A stretch of 64,000 nucleotides of DNA, taken from Vulcanimicrobiota bacterium. GTDB lineage: Bacteria; Vulcanimicrobiota; Xenobia; Xenobiales; JADMJV01. The DNA lies in NCBI GenBank assembly GCA_019637395.1, contig JAHBVR010000001.1, forward strand, positions 248,001 to 312,000. Reading direction: 5' to 3'. The translations under genes and the position numbers were made by a program. Shown here piece after piece: positions 19,877 through 31,403 of this stretch (position 1 is the stretch's first letter; each line of letters starts with the position of its first letter). The notes under the pieces were generated by a model. It did no database searches and had not been told where the DNA came from. It worked only from the letters and a program-made list of their open reading frames with translations.

Positions 19877-20599
19877 TCAATCCCCGGCATAGAGCGTGGA
19901 CTCCAGAAAGCGTAAGGCCCGAACCCCGAACCAACTGAAGCTCTCTCCATCCACGAAAGCATAGGGGAAACCCAGCCCCTCGAGCCCCTGCCGCTTACGC
20001 AAGAACGGATAGGGCTCCGAAGAAAAAAGCAACAGGGTCGAGTCCCGGTCGAAGCCCGAAAGGTCCACGACCGGGTATTTCTCCGAAAATCCATGCACGG
20101 GGTAGCCCGTCTTACGCAAAACCGAGCCGATGAAGGTGTCCGGACCCACGGCCATCCAGGGGTCGCGCCAGATCACGTAGACCACTGAACGCACCTCCCC
20201 TTGCGGCCGCCTCCCCCACTCCACAATTCCCGGCCAGCCGGCGCAGGGCTCAGCCACCGCCACTTCAGACCAGCGCGCGGCCCACTCAGCCAACCGTCCA
20301 CAGCCCAAGACGAGCGAGAGGTCGCGGAGCGCCGGCCCCACATCCCCCACGCTCAAAATGTGACTGGCCCACACCGGCAGCCCCGAGTCCAGGGACATAA
20401 AAAGCGGGTTCTCCTCCTTATCCAACACCAGCAAATCCGCCCCCAGCGACAACACCCGAGGCAAATTCCAGTCCTTGGTGCCCCCCACTCGGACCACCGA
20501 AGAGGGCGGGTGCACGCAGAAACGGGTTCTTCCCACCACTTCCACCCCGGCTTCCAGCAAGGTTTCCGTCCAGGAAGGCACCATGGAAATGACTCTCAC
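19877..20599 (-). CDS. BtuF-like helical-backbone metal/cobalamin-binding protein
   Basis: 240 residues. The N-terminus [24 protein letters not shown] matches the start of vitamin-B12/iron-siderophore binding proteins, followed by [22 protein letters not shown] and a C-terminal lobe. There is no signal peptide, so this is not a standard periplasmic receptor. It begins with GTG and is divergent from icmF with only 36 bases between start codons. A role in B12 handling for IcmF is a reasonable inference. Somewhat shorter than BtuF (about 265 residues). Confidence 0.75.
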
Positions 20600-20635
20600 G
20601 ATTCAAGTCCCGCCCGGCTGGGTAGCAAGGAGCCA

Positions 20636-23600
20636 ATGACGCTCACAATTGCCCCCACCACATACCCTATCCGCCTGGTCACGGCCGCCTCGCTGTTTGA
20701 CGGCCATGATGCCGCCATCAACATTATGCGCCGCCTCATGCAAAGCGCCGGAGCCGAGGTCATCCACCTCGGGCACAACCGCTCGGTCCAGGAAATCGTC
20801 AACTGCGCCATCCAGGAAGATGTGCAAGGAATTGCCATCACTTCCTACCAGGGTGGCCACGTCGAGTATTTCAAATACATGATCGACCTCATCCGCCAGG
20901 CCGGCGCCAACATCAAGGTATTCGGGGGGGGCGGCGGCACCATTCTGCCCGACGAGATCGAAGAACTCCACCACTACGGCGTCACCCGTATCTACTCGCC
21001 CGATGACGGCCGCCAGATGGGTCTCGAGGGCATGATCAAAGACCTCTTGAAAAGCTGTGATTTCGAAAAACGCAGCCACGACTTCAAGCCGTTCCTGAAC
21101 CAGAAAACCCAGGCGGAAACGGCCGCCCTCATCACCATCGCGGAAAACCACCGTGAGGTGGCCGATCAGCTCAAAGCCAGCTTGAAGCCCAACCAGGCCC
21201 CCGTGCTGGGCATCACCGGCACCGGTGGCTCCGGTAAATCCAGTCTGGTGGATGAATTCGTGCGCCGCTTCCTGGCCGACCAGCCCGGGAAGAAGGTGGC
21301 CGTGCTCTCCGTCGATCCCTCCAAGCGCAAGTCCGGCGGCGCCCTGCTCGGCGATCGCATCCGCATGAACTCGATCGACAGCCCGCGCGTCTTTATGCGC
21401 TCGCTGGCCACCCGCCAGTCCAACCTGGCCCTCTCGCGCCACATCGGCGACGCCGTCCAGATCTGCCGCGCCGCCGGCTATGACCTGATCCTGCTGGAAA
21501 CCTCCGGCATCGGCCAGTCGGATACGGAGATCACCGAATTTTCCGATGTCTCCCTCTACGTCATGACGGCCGAATACGGCGCCGCCACCCAGCTCGAGAA
21601 AATCGACATGCTGGACTTCGCCGACATCGTGGCCATCAACAAATTCGACAAACGGGGCAGCCTGGACGCCCTGCGCGACGTGAAAAAGCAGTGGCGCCGC
21701 AATCACAACGACTTCCAAAGAGAAGACGTGCCCGTTTATGGCACCATCGCCAGCCAGTTCAACGACCCCGGCATGAACGAACTCTACGGCGCCATCATGG
21801 ACAAGCTCGAGTTCGGCCACCAGCAATTGACCACCGGTTCCAGTGAAAAACACTGGATCATCCCACCCGAGCGCAGCCGCTACCTGGCCGAAATCGTGGA
21901 GACCTGCGAAGCTTATGACGCCCGGGTCAAAGCCCAGGCCCAGATCGCCCGCCGCATGTATCAACTCAGCGGCACCATCCAAACCATTCGCGCCACCGTC
22001 GGTCAGAAGCGCCTGGACATCGTCGAGCCCAAAGGCCCGGACGACACCGTGCATGTCACTCAGCGCATCGAAGGAGAACCGGACTACCTCAAAGACCTGG
22101 AAGAGCTCTACAAACAGTTGGAAAGCCAGCTCCACAGCGATTGCAAGCTGCTGCTGCAGGAATGGCCGGCCACCCAACGCCGCTACGCAGCCGCCAAATA
22201 TCAGTTTGACGTACGTGGCAAGACCATCGAGCTGGACCTGGTCAGCGAAACCCTATCCCACTTGAAAATCCCCAAGGTGGCCCTGCCGAAATACGAAGAC
22301 TGGGGTGACCTGCTCACCTGGTTGATGCGCGAAGCCCCGCCCGGGCAGTTCCCTTTCACCGCCGGCGTCTTCCCGCTCAAGCGCGAGAACGAAGACCCGG
22401 CCCGCATGTTCGCCGGCGAAGGCGGTCCGGAGCGCACCAACCGAAGATTCCACTATCTCTCCCAAGGCATGCCGGCGGCCCGCCTGTCCACCGCCTTTGA
22501 CTCGGTCACCCTGTACGGAGAAGATCCCGATCAACGCCCCGACATATATGGCAAAGTGGGCAATTCCGGCGTTTCCATCGCCAGCCTGGACGACGCCAAA
22601 AAGCTTTATTCGGGATTTGACCTGTGCGATCCGAAAACGTCCGTGTCCATGACCATCAACGGCCCGGCTCCCATGCTGCTGGCCTTCTTTCTCAATGCCG
22701 CCATCGACCAGGCTTGCGAAAAATACATCCAGGCCAACAACATCCCGTTTACTCCGAGCGGACCCACCTACCAGGGCGAACTACCCGAGGGCAACAATGG
22801 TCTGGGTCTGATGCTACTCGGCACTTCGGGCGACCAGGTCCTGCCCCCCGACGTCTACGCCAAAATCAAAGCCGACACGCTCAAGGCCGTGCGCGGCACG
22901 GTCCAGGCCGACATCCTTAAAGAAGACCAGGCCCAGAACACCTGCATCTTCTCGACCGATTTCGCCCTGAGGCTGATGGGCGACATCCAGCAGTATTTTA
23001 TCGATCACAAAGTGCGCAACTTCTACTCCGTCTCCATCTCCGGCTACCATATCGCCGAAGCCGGGGCCAACCCGATTTCCCAACTGGCCTTCACCCTGGC
23101 CAACGGTTTCACATTCGTGGAATACTACCTGAGCCGGGGCATGCATATCGACGACTTTGCCCCGAACCTTTCGTTCTTTTTCTCCAATGGAATGGACCCG
23201 GAATACACCGTCATCGGACGGGTGGCCCGGCGCCTCTGGTCCCGTGCCATTCGTGACAAATACGGCGGAAACGAACGTAGCCAGAAGCTCAAATACCACA
23301 TCCAGACCTCGGGGCGCTCGCTGCACGCTCAGGAAATCGCCTTCAACGACATCCGCACCACTCTGCAGGCGCTGCTGGCTCTCCAGGACAACTGCAACTC
23401 GCTGCACACCAACGCCTACGACGAAGCCATCACCACCCCCACCGAGGAAAGCGTGCGCCGCGCCCTGGCCATCCAGTTGGTCATCAACAAGGAATTCGGC
23501 CTTTCCAAGAACGAGAACCCCACTCAGGGCTCATTCGTAGTCGAAGAATTGACCGATCTGGTGGAAGCGGCGGTACTCCAGGAGTTCCGTTCACTCTCCG

Positions 23601-23992
23601 AGCGCGGCGGCGTGCTGGGAGCGATGGAGCGCATGTATCAAAGGTCAAAAATCCAGGAAGAATCACTCTACTACGAGACCCTCAAGCATGAAGGCAAACT
23701 GCCCATCATCGGCGTCAATACCTTCCTGGATCCGCAGGGCTCCCCCACCATCATTCCTCCCGAAGTGATCCGCGCCACCAGCGAAGAAAAGGACTACGCC
23801 ATCCGAGCGCGCGACGCATTCTGGAAAAAACATGAACAACAGGCCAAACAACGGCTCAAGGAAGTTCAGCGTGCCGCCATCCAGCACGAAAATCTCTTCG
23901 AAAGTCTGATGGAGGCGGCCAAAGTGTGCACTTTGGGCCAACTCTCCGCGGCCCTCTATGAAGTGGGCGGCCAATACCGCCGCAACATGTGA
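20636..23992 (+). CDS. icmF: Fused isobutyryl-CoA mutase IcmF (B12-dependent)
   Basis: 1,118 residues, the normal IcmF layout. The B12-binding domain comes first ([17 protein letters not shown]22, H24). A MeaI-type GTPase chaperone follows with P-loop [12 protein letters not shown] (about 192-203) and [20 protein letters not shown]. The mutase barrel comes last (for example [18 protein letters not shown] and [20 protein letters not shown]). It rearranges isobutyryl-CoA and n-butyryl-CoA; some members take pivalyl- or isovaleryl-CoA. I chose the ATG at 20636 (AAGGAG upstream, though close), since the longer frame overlaps the divergent gene. Linked to branched-chain acyl-CoA metabolism; the sucCD genes supply nearby succinyl-CoA chemistry. 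Confidence 0.95.
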
Positions 23993-24614: not shown

Positions 24615-24797
24615 ATGTTACGTTGGGCACTTTTCTTCTTTCTGGTCGCGCTGGTGGCGGCCATGTTCGGCTATGGCGGCTTTGCCGCGTTCTCGGCCGA
24701 TATCGGCAAAACGCTATTAGGCGTCTTCCTAGTGCTGGTCTTGCTGGCCATCGCCTTAGGTGGCTGGGGCTACAATCGTTTCTTTGGCAGCCGCTAG
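24615..24797 (+). CDS. DUF1328 (YtjA-like) small membrane protein
   Basis: 60 residues, two membrane helices: MLRWALFFFLVALVAAMFG and TLLGVFLVLVLLAIALGGW. This is the DUF1328 pattern, small inner-membrane proteins of unknown role, often stress-linked. ATG start with GAAGGG upstream. Its last 42 bases overlap the 3' end of the convergent PurA-like gene. Confidence 0.85.
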   Translation: MLRWALFFFLVALVAAMFGYGGFAAFSADIGKTLLGVFLVLVLLAIALGGWGYNRFFGSR

Positions 24798-25958
24798 AGC
24801 CCGTTTGTGGTTCGCGCCTGGTCCCCAGGACTCGAACCACAAAGGCGCTCCCAAAGCCGCCACGTAGCTCTCCAGCTCAAACGGCTCATAAACCGGTGCG
24901 CAGCCCCCCAGGAGCCGGGTCAGAGTCTGCTGATATTCCAGGTCCTGAAACGGCCCCGGCTGCAGTTCTCCGCCAGCGTATGAGACACACTGCAACCAGT
25001 CCGGCCCGACCCGATCCAGGTGCGTGATGGCCAGCCCGTCCACGCCTCCGCAACAGGCCAGGGCGTAGCGGCCCAAAACCGCGTCCGCCCAGCCGGTGCG
25101 AAAGGCGCCCTGCCAGGGACCGTGCACATTGTCCGGCTCGTCCAACCCTAAATCGCAGGCGCTGGGCAAGGGCCCGTTACCATGCCTCGTCATATAACTG
25201 CGCAACACCCCCAACCGCACCACCTCACCGGCATACCCCTGCAACAGCGCCAGCGCGTTGTCAAACGTGCAGGTCGACCAGGTGGTGTGCGGATGAAAGC
25301 CCCGCCATTCATCCAGCAATACCCCCTGGGCGCCTTCGAACACCACCGTTTCACGAAAGACGTCCTCGGCCATGGCCACCCCCAGGGACCCCACCAGCGC
25401 AATCCACTCCTCGATCAGCGTGCGGCTTTCCAGCACCGGATCCGGCCCCAGTTCCGCCCACTTGCGCGACTGGATCCGCAGCAGCTTGCGCCGCAACAGC
25501 GCCGCTGAGGATAAATCGCAAAAGCGAATGGCATCCTCAGGAAAAGCCAGCGAATCGGCCACCGTCTCCCCCACCCCCAGGCCGCAGGACCCGTGGCGCA
25601 AGCGCCGCTCGCGAATGTGGTTGGCGGCCACATGAAAGGGAGTGGTCACCAGCGCCTCAGGAGCGACCGTAATTGCGGACAGCCCGCAGCCCAACACCTC
25701 GGCTTCCCGCAGCAGACCCCCCGGATGGACGATCATGAAACGAGACAAATGAGTGCGCACGCCCGGCACCAGCGAACCGGCGCCGAACTGAGAAAAGGTA
25801 TGTTTCCGACCGTCCGGAGCCACCACCGTGTGCCCGGCCTGGGCGCCGCCATTAAAACGCACGACCAGGCGGGCATCCAGTTCCCGCACCAGGTAGTCGG
25901 TCATCGTTCCCTTGCCCGAATCGCCAAATCCGAGGTCGACAACGATGACCGCCTTCAC
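24756..25958 (-). CDS. Divergent adenylosuccinate synthetase-like protein
   Basis: 400 residues, PurA fold recognisable throughout: P-loop VDLGFGDSGKGTMTDYL (canonical GDEGKG), FNGGAQAGHTVV with the catalytic His (H43), YMTRHGNGPLPS, GAFRTGWADAVLGRYA and LAITHLDRVG. PurA joins IMP and aspartate using GTP. The catalytic Asp (D13) is kept, but the next Glu is Ser and the Arg-rich IMP loop is reduced. It is shorter than PurA (about 430). The GTG start overlaps the VWA gene stop by four bases. In an operon with a kinase-like and a VWA protein, it is unlikely to be the housekeeping enzyme; a related nucleotide-amino acid ligase is possible. Confidence 0.8.
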   Translation of the reverse strand: MKAVIVVDLGFGDSGKGTMTDYLVRELDARLVVRFNGGAQAGHTVVAPDGRKHTFSQFGAGSLVPGVRTHLSRFMIVHPGGLLREAEVLGCGLSAITVAPEALVTTPFHVAANHIRERRLRHGSCGLGVGETVADSLAFPEDAIRFCDLSSAALLRRKLLRIQSRKWAELGPDPVLESRTLIEEWIALVGSLGVAMAEDVFRETVVFEGAQGVLLDEWRGFHPHTTWSTCTFDNALALLQGYAGEVVRLGVLRSYMTRHGNGPLPSACDLGLDEPDNVHGPWQGAFRTGWADAVLGRYALACCGGVDGLAITHLDRVGPDWLQCVSYAGGELQPGPFQDLEYQQTLTRLLGGCAPVYEPFELESYVAALGAPLWFESWGPGANHKRALAAAKETIVAPAT

Positions 25959-26875
25959 GGCATCACCGGTTCCAAGGCGGGCAGCGGCTCCAGCGTGGCG
26001 GCAAAACCGCTCACCGCCGAAAGAATGCGGCCCACTTGCTGGCGCTCCAGACCGCCCGCCACCAGGCGCCGAGTCACTTCCTGTAGAGACGCGCCTTCGC
26101 AGAGAGCCACCAGGGCAGCCGCCACCAGGCAGGTGTCGGCGGAGCCTTCCATGGCGATGACGTGGTCACCGAAGACCTTTTCCCAGGCCGATCCGCAGCG
26201 CCCGACCCGACCCTTATCGGGAATCAGGAAGAACGGATGGTAATGACGGGACAACTCCTCGACGATTTGCTCCAGCGGCAGGTCGGCCGTCAAATCGTCG
26301 CCGATCAGATCCCGCACCCAGGTCTTGGAGACGGTCGGATACGGATTTTCGTCACCGGTCATGAAGAAGTAGCCGCGCTTACCGCGCCTGGCCGCTCGAT
26401 CGTGGTCGGTGTGGCGAGCCGCGAAATACATGGCCAGGTCATACGACTCGCAACCGTTGCCGCCGCCGCCCCCCTCCAGCCAGCTCCAGGTCAACCAGCG
26501 ATCCATATCCTCGGCGCTGGACTCGAACTGGCCGACCTGCAGCGGGCCCTGATCGTGGGCGGCGTCGCCTATGAACAGAAAGCATACCTGCGGATCGGCC
26601 ACGCCCGAATCGAGCAGCGTCTTCATGAAGCGCGGCAATTCCTGACGTGCCAGTTGTTCGGGGATCTCTCCCATCGAGCCGGTCACATCCAGCGCGAAGA
26701 GGATGGGAATGGAGTTGGGATGCTCCTGGCTGTCGCGGCTTTCACGCATGCCGACTCCCAGGGGGTTCATGAGCGGATGAACCCTGGACTGCTGGAAAAC
26801 CTCGGAGCGACTCTGGGTCGAGCGGGCTCTGGTGATATTCTGATGTGATTCGTAACTATAGGAACCATAACCCAT
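25955..26875 (-). CDS. VWA-domain protein with intact MIDAS
   Basis: 306 residues, no signal peptide or membrane helix, so cytoplasmic. After a Tyr/Ser-rich N-terminus (about 1-50) the von Willebrand A domain begins with PILFALDVTGSMGE, a metal-ion-dependent adhesion site (D63, T65, S67). Later comes DPQVCFLFIGDAAHDQGPLQ and GKRGYFFMTGDENP. A C-terminal helical part (200-306) completes it. VWA proteins usually scaffold multi-protein or chaperone assemblies. The ATG has GGAGG nine bases before; it sits 15 bases after the kinase-like gene and overlaps the PurA-like start by four bases. Confidence 0.82.
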   Translation of the reverse strand: MGYGSYSYESHQNITRARSTQSRSEVFQQSRVHPLMNPLGVGMRESRDSQEHPNSIPILFALDVTGSMGEIPEQLARQELPRFMKTLLDSGVADPQVCFLFIGDAAHDQGPLQVGQFESSAEDMDRWLTWSWLEGGGGGNGCESYDLAMYFAARHTDHDRAARRGKRGYFFMTGDENPYPTVSKTWVRDLIGDDLTADLPLEQIVEELSRHYHPFFLIPDKGRVGRCGSAWEKVFGDHVIAMEGSADTCLVAAALVALCEGASLQEVTRRLVAGGLERQQVGRILSAVSGFAATLEPLPALEPVMP

Positions 26876-26890
26876 GGACTGTTACCTCCG

Positions 26891-27682
26891 TTAGCGTAAT
26901 TGGGAAAGAGGGCAGAACTTAGGCGGTCCGAGAACCGCCGCGCTCACCCGTTTCAACTCTTCATTGACCTCCAGGGCGCTGCCCCGAGCGTTGCCCAGCA
27001 ACCGCTTCAGCGGCGCGGGCGCCCGGGCAACCAGAGTGCCGGCAATGGCCTCTAAGCCATCCGCCACATCCGACCCCTGACCCGGCCGGCACTGCGACCA
27101 ACCGCACAACCTCAGACCGTGGGCCTCGCTGTGGGCCAGCATGTGCTCGGCGCGCAAGTTGCCGTGCTGGAAGCCCAGCTCGTGCAGCTCGTGAAGCTGC
27201 TCCAGCAGGCGATGACTCAGCCAAACTCCGGCTTCGGCCGGAACACGCCCCGCATAGCTGGCCAGGGTGCGCTGAAATTCGCGCCGCCAGCGATAGACCA
27301 GCACGCGCTTTCCGGAATCGGAGAGCGCGCACTGGACCGGCTCGGGCAAATGGCGACCCAGGAAGCGTCCGGCACACAGGCGCTGCAAGGCGCGCATCCG
27401 CTCCCACTCCGCCCGCACCTCACCCACCTTGAGCACGACCATTTCCGTCAGCGGCGTATCGCGCCGCGCCAGGAAAATGCCGGGAGCCAGGCGGCCGTGC
27501 ACCAGATAGCTCAGGTCACCAACCCGGAAGCGGCCCAGAGAAGCAACACGTGAACGCGGAAGATCTCGAGGGATTCTCCAGGAAGGCAAGGGCCCTGGTA
27601 GCGAATCGCAGTATTCACAGGGCAAAGCCCGAGACTGCAACGGTCCGCCGCAGTTTTTGCAACGTTCCAGCATAATACTCAT
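26891..27682 (-). CDS. Zinc-ribbon pseudokinase
   Basis: 263 residues from the ATG at 27682. A zinc ribbon comes first (C8, C11, C22, C25). A protein-kinase-like domain follows: MVVLKVGE carries the ATP-site lysine, and GFQHGNLRAEHMLAH occupies the catalytic loop, where the HRD aspartate is replaced by Asn (HGN). The DFG position reads CGW. It should therefore be a pseudokinase or a weak, atypical kinase. Upstream in-frame TTG and ATG codons overlap the -35/-10 region; the ATG at 27682 lies seven bases after the -10 box (leaderless), with ATG 27673 as alternative. First gene of the pseudokinase / VWA / PurA-like operon. Confidence 0.7.
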   Translation of the reverse strand: MSIMLERCKNCGGPLQSRALPCEYCDSLPGPLPSWRIPRDLPRSRVASLGRFRVGDLSYLVHGRLAPGIFLARRDTPLTEMVVLKVGEVRAEWERMRALQRLCAGRFLGRHLPEPVQCALSDSGKRVLVYRWRREFQRTLASYAGRVPAEAGVWLSHRLLEQLHELHELGFQHGNLRAEHMLAHSEAHGLRLCGWSQCRPGQGSDVADGLEAIAGTLVARAPAPLKRLLGNARGSALEVNEELKRVSAAVLGPPKFCPLSQLR

Positions 27683-27719
27683 TTTGAGCATTATGCTGGA
27701 CAAGTAAGTGTCTTGTCAA
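27667..27719 (-). promoter_or_regulatory. Promoter and palindromic operators of the pseudokinase operon
   Basis: Minus strand -35 TTGACA (27719-27714), an 18-base spacer, -10 CATAAT (27695-27690), ATG seven bases later. A large palindrome (27667-27699; CCAGCATAAT...ATTATGCTGG with inner CTCA/TGAG) covers the -10 and the start site. A second inverted repeat, GACAAG/CTTGTC (27699-27717), covers the spacer and most of the -35. This is a typical layout for repression by a dimeric regulator. No regulator gene lies beside it. Confidence 0.7.
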
Positions 27720-27738: not shown

Positions 27739-29118
27739 TCAGTAGAGGCCGGTCAGACGGTAAATCGCGATCACCACAAAGACGGCGGCCGTCTTCAGGC
27801 AGGTAATCACAAAAATATCCTTATAGGAATCCTTGTGGGTCAGCCCGGTCACCAGCAGCAAGGTGATCACCGCCCCATTGTGCGGCAAAGTATCCATACC
27901 CCCGGAGGCCATGGAGGCCACCCGGTGCAAGACCTCGGGCGGCACCTGCCCGCCCTCCTGAAACTGCTTGCCCAGTGCGGCCAAAGCCAGCGACAATCCC
28001 CCCGAGGCCGAGCCGGTGATGCCGGCCAGCACGTTGACGGAGACGGCTTCATTCACCAGCGGATCGGAAAAAGCCCCACCCAGGGCATTCTTGACCCATA
28101 CGAAGCCGGGCAAAGAGGCGATGACGCCGCCGAAACCATACTCGGAAGCCGTATTCATGGTGGCCAGCAGAGCTCCGGCCACGGCCGCCCGCAAACCTTC
28201 CTGCAGACTGCGCTGAATGTCGCGAAAACCCACCGCCAGACAGGTCAAGATTCCGGCGCACAGGGCTATCTCGATCGACCAGATGGCCGCCACCGTCTTG
28301 ACGATCACCGCTCCATCCTCGGGCAGGCCGATGGACGCAAAGTCATAGGTCTCGCCGTAGACGCGGGCCAACCAGGGACCGAGCAGATAGTTCAACACGG
28401 CCACCACCAGCAGCGGCAGCATGGCCAGGAAGAAGGGAGGCAACACCCGTTCGCGAGTTTCCTCGACGGCGTGTCCCCCATAGCCCTCGCCGGCCAGAAA
28501 GGCCCGATTGCGCTCGCGCGCCAGATACAGCATGCCGGCCACGAACACGAACACGGCCCCGCTGCAGCCCAGCACCGGAGCTGCGTAGACCGTGGTGCCG
28601 AAAAAGGTGGTCGGGATCACATTCTGGATTTGCGGCGTGCCCGGCAGGGCGTCCATGGTAAAGGTAAAGGCGCCGAGGGCAATGGTACCGGGAACCAACC
28701 GTTTGGGAATATCCGCCTGATAAAACAGGTTATTGGCCAGCGGATAGACCGCGAAAGCCACCACAAACAGTGAAACGCCTCCGTAAGTGAGCACGGCGCA
28801 GGCCAGCACGATAGCCAGCATCACCTGACGCTGTCCCAGGCCGCGCACGATAGTGGCCGAAATAGAGGCGGCCGCCCCCGACATTTCCACGAACTTGCCG
28901 AACACCGCCCCCAGCATGAAAACCGGGAAAAACTTGCGCACAAACTCGACCGCCTTGACCATGAAGACGTCGGAATAAAAGGGCAGCACGGCCGCCGGGC
29001 CGAGCGACAGCAGCACCGCCAGCAAAGCGCAGAGGGGCGCAAAAAGCACTACCGAGAGTCCCCGGTAGGCGACCCACATCAGCAAAAAGAGAGCCAGCAG
29101 TACGATCAAAAGTTGCAT
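27739..29118 (-). CDS. GntP-family organic-acid permease
   Basis: 459 residues with about 12 hydrophobic segments, beginning QLLIVLLALFLLMWVAYRG. Family-type sequences: LTYGGVSLFVVAFAVYPLA, ALPGTPQIQNVIPTTFFGT, and near the end ASGGMDTLPHNGAVITLL. GntP transporters bring in gluconate or related hydroxy acids with protons. I start at ATG 29118; the longer frame from GTG 29172 lacks a hydrophobic start. Ribosome-binding site weak. It is divergent from the PLD-like gene and upstream of the pseudokinase operon promoter. Confidence 0.85.
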   Translation of the reverse strand: MQLLIVLLALFLLMWVAYRGLSVVLFAPLCALLAVLLSLGPAAVLPFYSDVFMVKAVEFVRKFFPVFMLGAVFGKFVEMSGAAASISATIVRGLGQRQVMLAIVLACAVLTYGGVSLFVVAFAVYPLANNLFYQADIPKRLVPGTIALGAFTFTMDALPGTPQIQNVIPTTFFGTTVYAAPVLGCSGAVFVFVAGMLYLARERNRAFLAGEGYGGHAVEETRERVLPPFFLAMLPLLVVAVLNYLLGPWLARVYGETYDFASIGLPEDGAVIVKTVAAIWSIEIALCAGILTCLAVGFRDIQRSLQEGLRAAVAGALLATMNTASEYGFGGVIASLPGFVWVKNALGGAFSDPLVNEAVSVNVLAGITGSASGGLSLALAALGKQFQEGGQVPPEVLHRVASMASGGMDTLPHNGAVITLLLVTGLTHKDSYKDIFVITCLKTAAVFVVIAIYRLTGLY

Positions 29119-29189
29119 GGGGCCACATTGCAGAAGTTTTTCAGGGTGTCCTCCTAGACTGAAACCATTCACTCGAGGAGGGTCCCAAC

Positions 29190-31403
29190 ATGTCCTTTAC
29201 CATCGGTAACAACAAGGTTGACAGCCGCCAGGTCAACCCCGAGCTGGTGCGCAAGTGGGCCGACAGCGCCAAGCGCATCGAGGTGGAGGGCAACGCCTCC
29301 AAGGATAGTTGGGAAAAACTGGCCCAGGGCGCCGAGAAGAACAGTGCTCTCAGCCAGGCCGACATGGACCAGATCACCAACCTGGGCAAAGCCTGCTTCA
29401 AGTACCACAAGCAACTCCATTCGGATTTCAAGGCCAGTGGTTACAAAGACATGGCCATCAAAGACAAGCTCTCCGACGTGCACGTTTTCACCACCGGATC
29501 GGACGCCATCAAGAAAGCCGTCGCCCGCAGCCAGGCCCTGCTGGCCGTCGAAGCCGCCGCTCCCGCCAGTTTTGGACCCACTGGCGTGGTGGCCGCATAC
29601 GCCGCCGCCGCCCGCCTGGATGATGAAAGCCTGAAAGCCCTGGTCGACTCGGTGTCCGGCATGCGCGCCGGAGAAAGCAATCTGGTCTTCGGCGGCAACT
29701 CCATCAAAGGTTTCCACTGCGAAGAAATCTGGGCTCAAATGAACCGAATGCTGGACAAAGCCGCTGAAAACGGCCGCTCCGGTCAACCCCAGGAAGTCAA
29801 CTCCCAGTATTACGAACTCACCAACCAGCAGATCGTGGGCAAACTGGCCCAGGCCGCCGAAGCCGGCAACAAAGTGCGCGTCAACGTCGATGCCGGCCGC
29901 CTGGTGGCTTACAAGGGCAGCCACGTGGTTATCGACGAGGTGCCCGACAAGCTGCGCGCCATCATCCAGCTCAACAGCACCAAGGGTGACATCGCTGTTT
30001 CCGCTTATCCCGTCCCCAAGCAGCTGGGCGACCCGGGCAACCTCATGCACCGCAAAGGCCTGCGCGTGGGCGAAGAATTCTTGCTCTCCGGTATGAACGC
30101 CAACGAAGGCTCCGGTGAAAACATCGACGCCGGCTACGTCATCCAGGGACCGGCCGCCAAGAAGCTGGTGGCCAACTTCTCGCGCGACGTGCAACAGTCG
30201 GCCGGCGCCAGCAACGCAGAAATCTACGGGGAGAAGCCGCTGGCCGGCTTCATGGACGGCGACATCAACATGGGCACGCGCGGTCTGGCCGCCATGATCG
30301 ACACCGTGGCCGGTCCGGCCAAGGCGGGCAACTCCGTGCCCCGTTTCAAGACCTTCGCCCAAATCGAAGAATTCGCCAAACAGAACGGCCAGAAAGCCGC
30401 CGACTACATCAATGTCAAGCCGGCCGAAGCCGAGGAGCTGCTGGCCAGGGGGGAAGCCCTGCCGCTCAGCAAAAAGGGTAAGGAAACCTTCATGGGCCTG
30501 GTGGATCGCGCCCTGGGCGGCTGCCGCACCAAGGAGAACGTCGCCCGTCTTAAGGACATTTCGCTCCCCGAGGGTAAGAAGGTGGGCAAGGCCGACGTGG
30601 CCCTGGCCGACTTTCCCACCGACCGCGAAACCCTGATGATCACGGCCATTCAGGAAGCCGAAAAGTTCATCTACATCCCCGCCTTCGTGATGACCGGCAC
30701 CATCGCCGAGATGCTGGTGGCCAAGAAAGAAGAAATGGAAGCCGCCGGTAAGCAAATCGACATCCGCGTGCTGGCTGACCCGGGCGTCTACCCGGACGGA
30801 GGCACCCCCAACGAAGCCGGCATGGAGCGTCTGGAAGACGCCGGCATTCCTTGCAAATGGGCCAACCTGCCCCGCTCCGGCTGGCACGACCGCAAGATCC
30901 ACGCCAAGGAAATCCTCACCGATAAGGGCGAGTTCTTCGGCAGCACCAATTTCTCCAAGAAGGGCCTGCGCGAAAACTGGGAGCACTCCGGCTACGTCAA
31001 GTTCGACGACAGCAACCGCGACGAGCAAGCCGCCTCGGTGGCCCAGTTCAACAACCTGTGGGAGAATGAATCCTTCGAACTCAACAGCCTGGAGCGCGGT
31101 AAGAAGCTCAAGAACCGGGATCGCGAGCGCATCGACTTTGCCGAACTGGTGGATGAGTCCCGTTACGGAACCACCCGCGACATCATCAGCGGCATCGAGA
31201 AAGCCGAAATCGACACCGGCACCTTCACCGAAGAGCAGGCCAAGGATCCCCAAACGGCCGCCCGCGTGGCCGAACTGGAGAAAGCCGGCTACGACGAAGG
31301 CAGCGCCGTCATTATGGCCGTCCAGGAGAAGCTGGGCAAAGCCGAATATTACAAGGCGCTCAACGAACTCCCCGGACGCAAAGAACTGAACGGGCTACAT
31401 TAA
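29190..31403 (+). CDS. Phospholipase D-like (double HKD) protein
   Basis: 737 residues with no signal peptide. Two HxK motifs are spaced like the halves of a PLD enzyme: HRKGLRVGEEFLLSGMNAN (H287, lacking the final Asp) and KIHAKEILTDKGEFFGSTNFS (H571, complete HxKx4D). PLD-family enzymes attack phosphodiesters (lipids, nucleic acids, cardiolipin synthesis). The N-terminal about 250 residues and the charged C-terminal about 100 are unfamiliar. A strong site (GAGGAGGG) precedes the ATG. Substrate unknown. Confidence 0.78.
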   Translation: MSFTIGNNKVDSRQVNPELVRKWADSAKRIEVEGNASKDSWEKLAQGAEKNSALSQADMDQITNLGKACFKYHKQLHSDFKASGYKDMAIKDKLSDVHVFTTGSDAIKKAVARSQALLAVEAAAPASFGPTGVVAAYAAAARLDDESLKALVDSVSGMRAGESNLVFGGNSIKGFHCEEIWAQMNRMLDKAAENGRSGQPQEVNSQYYELTNQQIVGKLAQAAEAGNKVRVNVDAGRLVAYKGSHVVIDEVPDKLRAIIQLNSTKGDIAVSAYPVPKQLGDPGNLMHRKGLRVGEEFLLSGMNANEGSGENIDAGYVIQGPAAKKLVANFSRDVQQSAGASNAEIYGEKPLAGFMDGDINMGTRGLAAMIDTVAGPAKAGNSVPRFKTFAQIEEFAKQNGQKAADYINVKPAEAEELLARGEALPLSKKGKETFMGLVDRALGGCRTKENVARLKDISLPEGKKVGKADVALADFPTDRETLMITAIQEAEKFIYIPAFVMTGTIAEMLVAKKEEMEAAGKQIDIRVLADPGVYPDGGTPNEAGMERLEDAGIPCKWANLPRSGWHDRKIHAKEILTDKGEFFGSTNFSKKGLRENWEHSGYVKFDDSNRDEQAASVAQFNNLWENESFELNSLERGKKLKNRDRERIDFAELVDESRYGTTRDIISGIEKAEIDTGTFTEEQAKDPQTAARVAELEKAGYDEGSAVIMAVQEKLGKAEYYKALNELPGRKELNGLH

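Follow-up and report, generated by a model that had tools for sequence, protein, structure and literature searches.

Why should a bacterium that has an ordinary adenylosuccinate synthetase (AdSS; PurA) also hold a second, divergent relative of this enzyme in one operon with a VWA-like protein and a kinase-like protein? The question arises from a window of 64,000 nucleotides (positions 248,001 to 312,000 of contig JAHBVR010000001.1, assembly GCA_019637395.1) in the 7.66-Mb genome of a Vulcanimicrobiota bacterium, the nearest public relatives of which are Candidatus Eremiobacterota. Reading of the open reading frames (ORFs) gave a minus-strand operon in the order kinase-like, VWA-like and PurA-like, and "PurA2" is used here as a working name for the last of these and its relatives:

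24756..25958, minus strand: PurA2, 400 amino acids from a GTG start; supported by PF00709 (2.3e-47), the residue comparison, the tree and the structural model
25955..26875, minus strand: VWA-like protein, 306 amino acids; supported by the metal-site pattern, the coupling to PurA2 and PHROG 2971 (1.5e-50)
26891..27682, minus strand: predicted zinc-ribbon pseudokinase, 263 amino acids; best start the ATG at 27682, from the conserved leaderless arrangement

The tight coupling of the three genes described in the original prediction is borne out by these ORFs, with a 15-base spacing between the kinase-like and VWA-like genes (26876-26890) and a four-base GTGA overlap between the VWA-like gene and PurA2 (25955-25958), and the motifs it named are all present in the translations: HGN and CGW in the kinase-like protein, DVTGSM in the VWA-like protein and GDSGKG in the PurA-like protein. 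The set is almost certainly a real conserved functional unit. PurA2 itself is, judging from its residues, quite probably an active ligase with changed specificity; the best reading overall, whose chances we put at about even, is that the VWA-PurA2 cassette, usually accompanied by a pseudokinase, works as a regulated nucleotide ligase with changed substrates.

PurA2 as a separate branch of the AdSS family

The window PurA2 belongs to the AdSS family by its PF00709 match, but falls far below the cut-offs of the equivalog models for PurA (133.8 against 402 bits for NF002223 and 102.9 against 395.55 bits for TIGR00184). The best structural matches of its predicted structure (mean predicted local distance difference test score, pLDDT, 90) are AdSS. 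In the phylogenetic tree, the PurA2 sequences, including those from phages, fall into a single clade (100/100) that excludes PurA and PurZ, with long PurZ and phage branches and an unsure deep order. Contrary to what would have refuted the original prediction, PurA2 is not the sole PurA of its genome, the ordinary copy lying on contig 8 (505 bits, against 161 bits for PurA2), and it branches outside normal PurA. Canonical PurA was likewise present in 16 of the 18 PurA2 genomes checked, the exceptions being one Myxococcales metagenome-assembled genome with only PurA2, and a Paceibacterota genome with two PurA2 and no PurA. The latter genome (G021) is 0.9 Mb in size and carries its two copies as PurA2-VWA pairs (L029 and L031).

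Residues were compared over 86 PurA2 sequences in E. coli PurA numbering. D13, K16 and H41 are invariant (86/86), and Q224, T239 and D333 are kept in 85 of them; together with the GDxGKG loop and the fold, catalytic D13 and H41 as well as D333 are shared with PurA (PF00709, TIGR00184). In the aspartate loop, by contrast, T301 is replaced by Q and R303 is absent in every sequence, and R305 has become F in 78. Elsewhere in the pockets, N38 is changed to Q (85/86), T129 to C (83/86) and V273 to H (86/86), and R143 is not kept; further changes affect S240 (W in 84/86) and K331 (H or C in 85/86). The substrate-site roles of N38, T129, R143, V273, R305 and K331 are those generally ascribed to them in AdSS structures. 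On these sequence grounds, PurA2 keeps the catalytic residues and fold of AdSS and has lost the residues holding L-aspartate and some of those holding inosine monophosphate (IMP). The retained chemistry and the rewriting of both substrate sites speak for another pair of substrates and against decay. The telling changes of PurA2 lie in the aspartate and IMP pockets and not in GDSGKG, which the original prediction had stressed: this change is minor, the position being A, C, S or Q in most relatives.

These residues also bear on three other explanations. First, PurA2 might be a catalytically dead PurA relative that senses nucleotides or serves as a scaffold within a signalling complex of the VWA-like protein and the pseudokinase, which would suit the degenerate partner kinase and the difference of both substrate pockets from those of PurA; the strict invariance of D13, K16 and H41 across many phyla and phages is not expected without catalysis and makes this explanation distinctly improbable. 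Second, a redundant ordinary PurA paralog standing in the operon by chance would agree with the Pfam family match and the AdSS fold. This is hardly credible in view of the canonical PurA elsewhere in the genome, the shortfall against both equivalog cut-offs (134 and 103 bits against 402 and 396), the missing aspartate-binding residues and a neighbourhood conserved across phyla and phages, and the ordinary paralog was rejected on the second PurA, the separate clade and the rewritten residues.

Third, PurA2 might resemble PurZ and PurZ0, the 2-aminoadenylosuccinate synthetases of Z-genome phages, which are likewise a divergent PurA branch in phages, and make a modified deoxynucleotide for DNA. 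The superfamily is the same and PurA2 also occurs in phages; moreover, R303 of E. coli PurA contacts both aspartate and the O2' of IMP (PMC8342488), so its loss would suit a 2'-deoxy substrate. Nevertheless, PurZ has Ser at the D13 position, where all 86 PurA2 sequences have Asp, and it keeps a conserved loop tip that contacts aspartate (PMC8342488), whereas PurA2 has lost the aspartate loop. The PurA2 members known here come mostly from the chromosomes of bacteria and from large phages, and the Z-cluster partners DatZ and MazZ do not adjoin it in the phages Sebata, Va1 or RHph_TM39. A PurZ-like role is therefore very unlikely, and membership of the PurZ/Z-DNA group was rejected on the separate clade and a score of 40.4 bits with the NCBIfam PurZ model (cut-off 300 bits).

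Conservation and composition of the cassette

A scan of bacterial and archaeal genomes yielded 159 PurA2 relatives, 80 of which were kept and underlie the bacterial counts given here. They come from at least seven phyla (Eremiobacterota, Myxococcota, Actinomycetota, Chloroflexota, Pseudomonadota, Verrucomicrobiota and Patescibacteria), and the commonest gene order is kinase-VWA-PurA2 on one strand. A VWA gene stands beside PurA2 at 72 of the 80 loci; seven of the remaining eight break off at a contig end no more than about 310 bases upstream of PurA2, and in the eighth genome (L022) the VWA and kinase genes lie together on another contig. A kinase-like gene was found at 55 of the 68 loci with enough upstream sequence. 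The comparison of locus neighbourhoods revealed no gene beyond the trio that is common to all lineages. At finer scale, all six genomes of the window's family contain PurA2 and a normal PurA, and other families of the order lack PurA2; in Variovorax the distribution is patchy, with full-length PurA2 in 25 of 61 genomes.

PurA2 occurs on bacterial chromosomes, on plasmids and in many large phages. Searches with tblastn found it in 225 phage records, mostly of cluster C mycobacteriophages, a few of the matches being ordinary PurA. Mycobacteriophage Sebata has the whole trio (gp260, kinase; gp261, VWA-like; gp263, PurA2); the VWA-PurA2 pair occurs in Vibrio phage Va1 and Rhizobium phage RHph_TM39. 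On PurA2 contigs from IMG/VR, a VWA gene lies nearby in 77 of 80 and a kinase-like gene in 36 of 80; in the reverse direction, PurA2 was present on 78 of 80 phage contigs with the VWA gene, both exceptions ending at that gene. This two-way coupling indicates that VWA and PurA2 form a near-obligate core, with the kinase-like protein as a frequent partner. The trio is thus not confined to one genome, its members being neighbours across phyla and in phages, which together with the strength of the PF00709 match places the operon arrangement beyond chance.

The VWA label of the second protein rests mainly on its metal-site pattern, D63-x-T65-x-S67 with D175, in which all 55 members examined have D63, S67 and D175, and position 65 is T or S; as a sequence pattern, it is that of a metal-ion-dependent adhesion site. 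Pfam VWA_2 was matched weakly, by 3 of the 55 relatives, and contributes to the label. The window protein itself reached no Pfam cut-off, and the family profile had no match among Protein Data Bank (PDB) sequences. Immediately downstream of PurA2, L010 (9442-10347) and the other Myxococcus/Pyxidicoccus loci L008, L009, L012, L014 and L016 have another VWA gene that belongs to this family. In distant VWA relatives from Eremiobacterota and Uhrbacteria (G003, G006 and G026), the place of PurA2 is taken by a gene for a pyruvate-kinase-barrel-like protein of about 350 amino acids (PF00224, E-values 1e-8 to 1e-10; L099:4786-6653, L100:4163-5976 and L101:3693-5682). The pair is possibly a sister two-gene system, and this replacement suggests that such VWA proteins can have different metabolic enzymes as partners.

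The window kinase-like protein also reached no Pfam cut-off. Its family profile retrieved solved kinases from the PDB sequences at 6e-16, CK2 being the best, and the predicted structure (pLDDT 87) has a kinase fold with PknG as top match and template modelling scores (TM-scores) of about 0.5. The HRD Asp and the DFG Asp occur in 15 and 16 of the 60 members, respectively, and together in none (0/60), by which criterion the family as a whole is a pseudokinase family; the beta-3 Lys is kept in 57 of 60, and the pseudokinase may bind ATP. The N-terminus varies among lineages. On the one hand, members from Eremiobacterota, Myxococcota, Pseudomonadota and Verrucomicrobiota have a zinc ribbon; on the other hand, most members from Actinomycetota and Chloroflexota, and that of Sebata, have a segment with an HPD motif, likely, though not proven, to be a J-domain (the best Pfam DnaJ match, at 9e-6, is sub-threshold with 26.1 against 27.8 bits). 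The TCAD9 kinase-like family was also considered and gave weak matches only, in the window's genome.

Among known systems, one that is close in composition is the TerY-P triad of a TerY-like VWA protein, a PP2C phosphatase and a Ser/Thr kinase with a C-terminal zinc ribbon (PMC11090510). Like the triad, the cassette is a three-gene set that combines a VWA-like protein with a kinase fold and a zinc ribbon, but its kinase is degenerate, its ribbon is N-terminal and its third gene is PurA2. No PP2C was found in the window operon, nor among the 25 families listed out of 70 from 46 sampled neighbours, and membership of the triad was rejected on the missing PP2C and the degenerate kinase. Nor does the window operon have a gene for a MoxR AAA+ ATPase next to the vWA gene, as vWA-MoxR systems do. 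PHROG 1211, PHROG 2971 and the "PurA-like" genes of cluster C phages are the same protein families, annotated singly and not as a linked system; labels in use are 2-aminooxy adenylosuccinate synthetase or hypothetical protein, for which no supporting tests were found, and the members in cluster C mycobacteriophages bear only the annotations "PurA-like", "hypothetical" and "kinase". The set is not named in Pfam, NCBIfam, PHROGs or PADLOC, the last of which matches neither PurA2 nor the VWA-like protein, and the kinase-like protein only weakly, to MkoA. A search of openly licensed papers returned no description of the linked set, and we know of no system that combines PurA2, a VWA-like protein and a pseudokinase.

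Genomic context and possible function

Clues to the substrate come from the genes around the cassette. Among the actinobacterial loci, all 19 with sufficient flanking sequence have NrtR-type or NUDIX proteins adjoining it; on Rhodococcus and Tsukamurella plasmids, a NUDIX gene is just downstream. On the upstream side, two Massilia have an NrtR-type protein and two Accumulibacter an NMNAT-NUDIX protein. Phage neighbours include NADAR in Va1, and NUDIX, PRTase_3 and HIRAN in RHph_TM39, and within 7 kb on the 80 PurA2 phage contigs there were raw counts of 13 with NAMPT and 10 with NrtR-like or NMNAT-NUDIX genes. These neighbours are moderate evidence for a link with nicotinamide adenine dinucleotide (NAD) and ADP-ribose, and we propose only tentatively, leaning slightly towards doubt, that the substrate or signal belongs to this metabolism. 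It may be speculated that a dinucleotide, or another substrate lacking a free 5'-monophosphate, would fit the loss of contacts to the IMP phosphate.

Conflict networks around NAD and ADP-ribose include ARG-centred ADP-ribose systems (PMC9503650, in which PurA is not mentioned), which have a NUDIX or WYL sensor transcription factor; an NrtR-type NUDIX regulator and a vWA protein are found together in some cassette lineages. Such a regulator adjoins the cassette in Actinomycetota, in Massilia and in a number of phages, with none beside the window operon, and no ADP-ribosylglycohydrolase was found in the window surroundings or among the annotated neighbours of the cassette. The cassette might be a phage-host conflict module, that is, a bacterial defence or a phage counter-defence acting on NAD/ADP-ribose products made during infection, an explanation that overlaps with a regulated nucleotide ligase but asserts a biological role. 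Its presence on chromosomes, plasmids and many large phages, its patchiness in Variovorax, and the NAMPT, NMNAT-NUDIX, NrtR and NADAR genes near it in some phages, all members of the conflict networks (PMC9503650), would fit such a module. We nevertheless consider it unlikely, because PADLOC has no family for PurA2 or the VWA-like protein, no defence-island genes are common to the loci, and the cassette is kept in every one of the six genomes of the window's family, as a stable house function would be. The regulated nucleotide-modifying module of the original prediction stands as the best reading. A stress or defence role may be in keeping with the patchy occurrence in Variovorax and the presence in phages, but PADLOC matches neither PurA2 nor the VWA-like protein.

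For the regulated ligase with changed substrates, the following mechanism can be envisaged. PurA2 would activate the 6-oxo group of a purine nucleotide using a nucleoside triphosphate, and would then attach an amine that is not free aspartate, the acceptor likewise differing from plain IMP. The VWA-like protein and the pseudokinase, with its zinc ribbon or J-domain-like N-terminus, would form a metal-dependent complex that gates PurA2 or presents its substrate. A more specific and unlikely version is a new reaction in which PurA2 links C6 of a purine nucleotide or NAD-like dinucleotide to an amine that is not free aspartate and might be an amino group on a protein which the VWA/J-domain/pseudokinase complex presents; if true, it would constitute a novel nucleotide signal or protein modification used by bacteria and phages.

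Several observations weigh against the favoured reading or its NAD link. The residue mapping comes from a sequence alignment that is weakest near R143 and in the short loop; the Nocardia VWA-PurA2 pair has no kinase-like gene beside it; PurA2 is lacking at 76 of 81 phage NAMPT loci (found by an alignment-based scan, a single-protein scan having given only three); the counts of NAD-gene neighbours are raw; and neither the window operon nor most Variovorax, Myxococcus and Eremiobacterota loci have NAD-related genes beside them.

AdSS is a central and well-understood enzyme, and a widespread sister branch that has a rewritten pocket while its chemistry is intact predicts an undescribed purine metabolite or modification. 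PurA2 is moreover tied to a VWA-like protein, in bacteria as well as phages, and usually to a pseudokinase; it thereby provides a case in which control of a metabolic ligase by a dead kinase can be tested, which the members in widely used cluster C mycobacteriophages make accessible to tests.

Promoter region and flanking genes

Two further features were recognized upstream of the operon:

27690..27719, minus strand: sigma-70-type promoter, TTGACA-18-CATAAT, 11 of 12 consensus positions; kept in L003-L007 with a spacer of 17
27666..27700, no strand: inverted repeat with 16-base arms and a 3-base centre, covering the -10 hexamer and the ATG at 27682

The end point 27719 of the original prediction is the first base of the -35 hexamer. 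The core of the inverted repeat, TGCTCAnnATGAG, is conserved in five relatives (L003-L007), and a genome-wide site search found the repeat only here in the window genome. It is a candidate operator, and its overlap with the promoter, its conservation and its uniqueness suggest a dedicated repressor and a leaderless start; with no other site in the genome, a regulon provides no functional clue. By default, the Eremiobacterota operon would be kept under repression, the inverted repeat serving for its induction.

Upstream of the kinase-like gene and on the same strand lies a GntP-type permease gene (27739-29172, minus), and L003 also has an upstream GntP-type gene. Next in the window comes a plus-strand ORF for a protein of 737 amino acids with a PLD-like domain (29190-31403), weakly similar to DISARM DrmC. 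At the other end, a short hydrophobic ORF of about 60 amino acids (24615-24797, plus; MLRWALFFFLVALVAAMFGYGG...) is convergent with PurA2 and overlaps its 3' end; it presumably resembles small DUF1328-type membrane proteins. The plus-strand ORF at 20201-23992, the listed start of which is probably too early, encodes IcmF, the fused isobutyryl-CoA mutase/GTPase (1733 bits against a cut-off of 1500).

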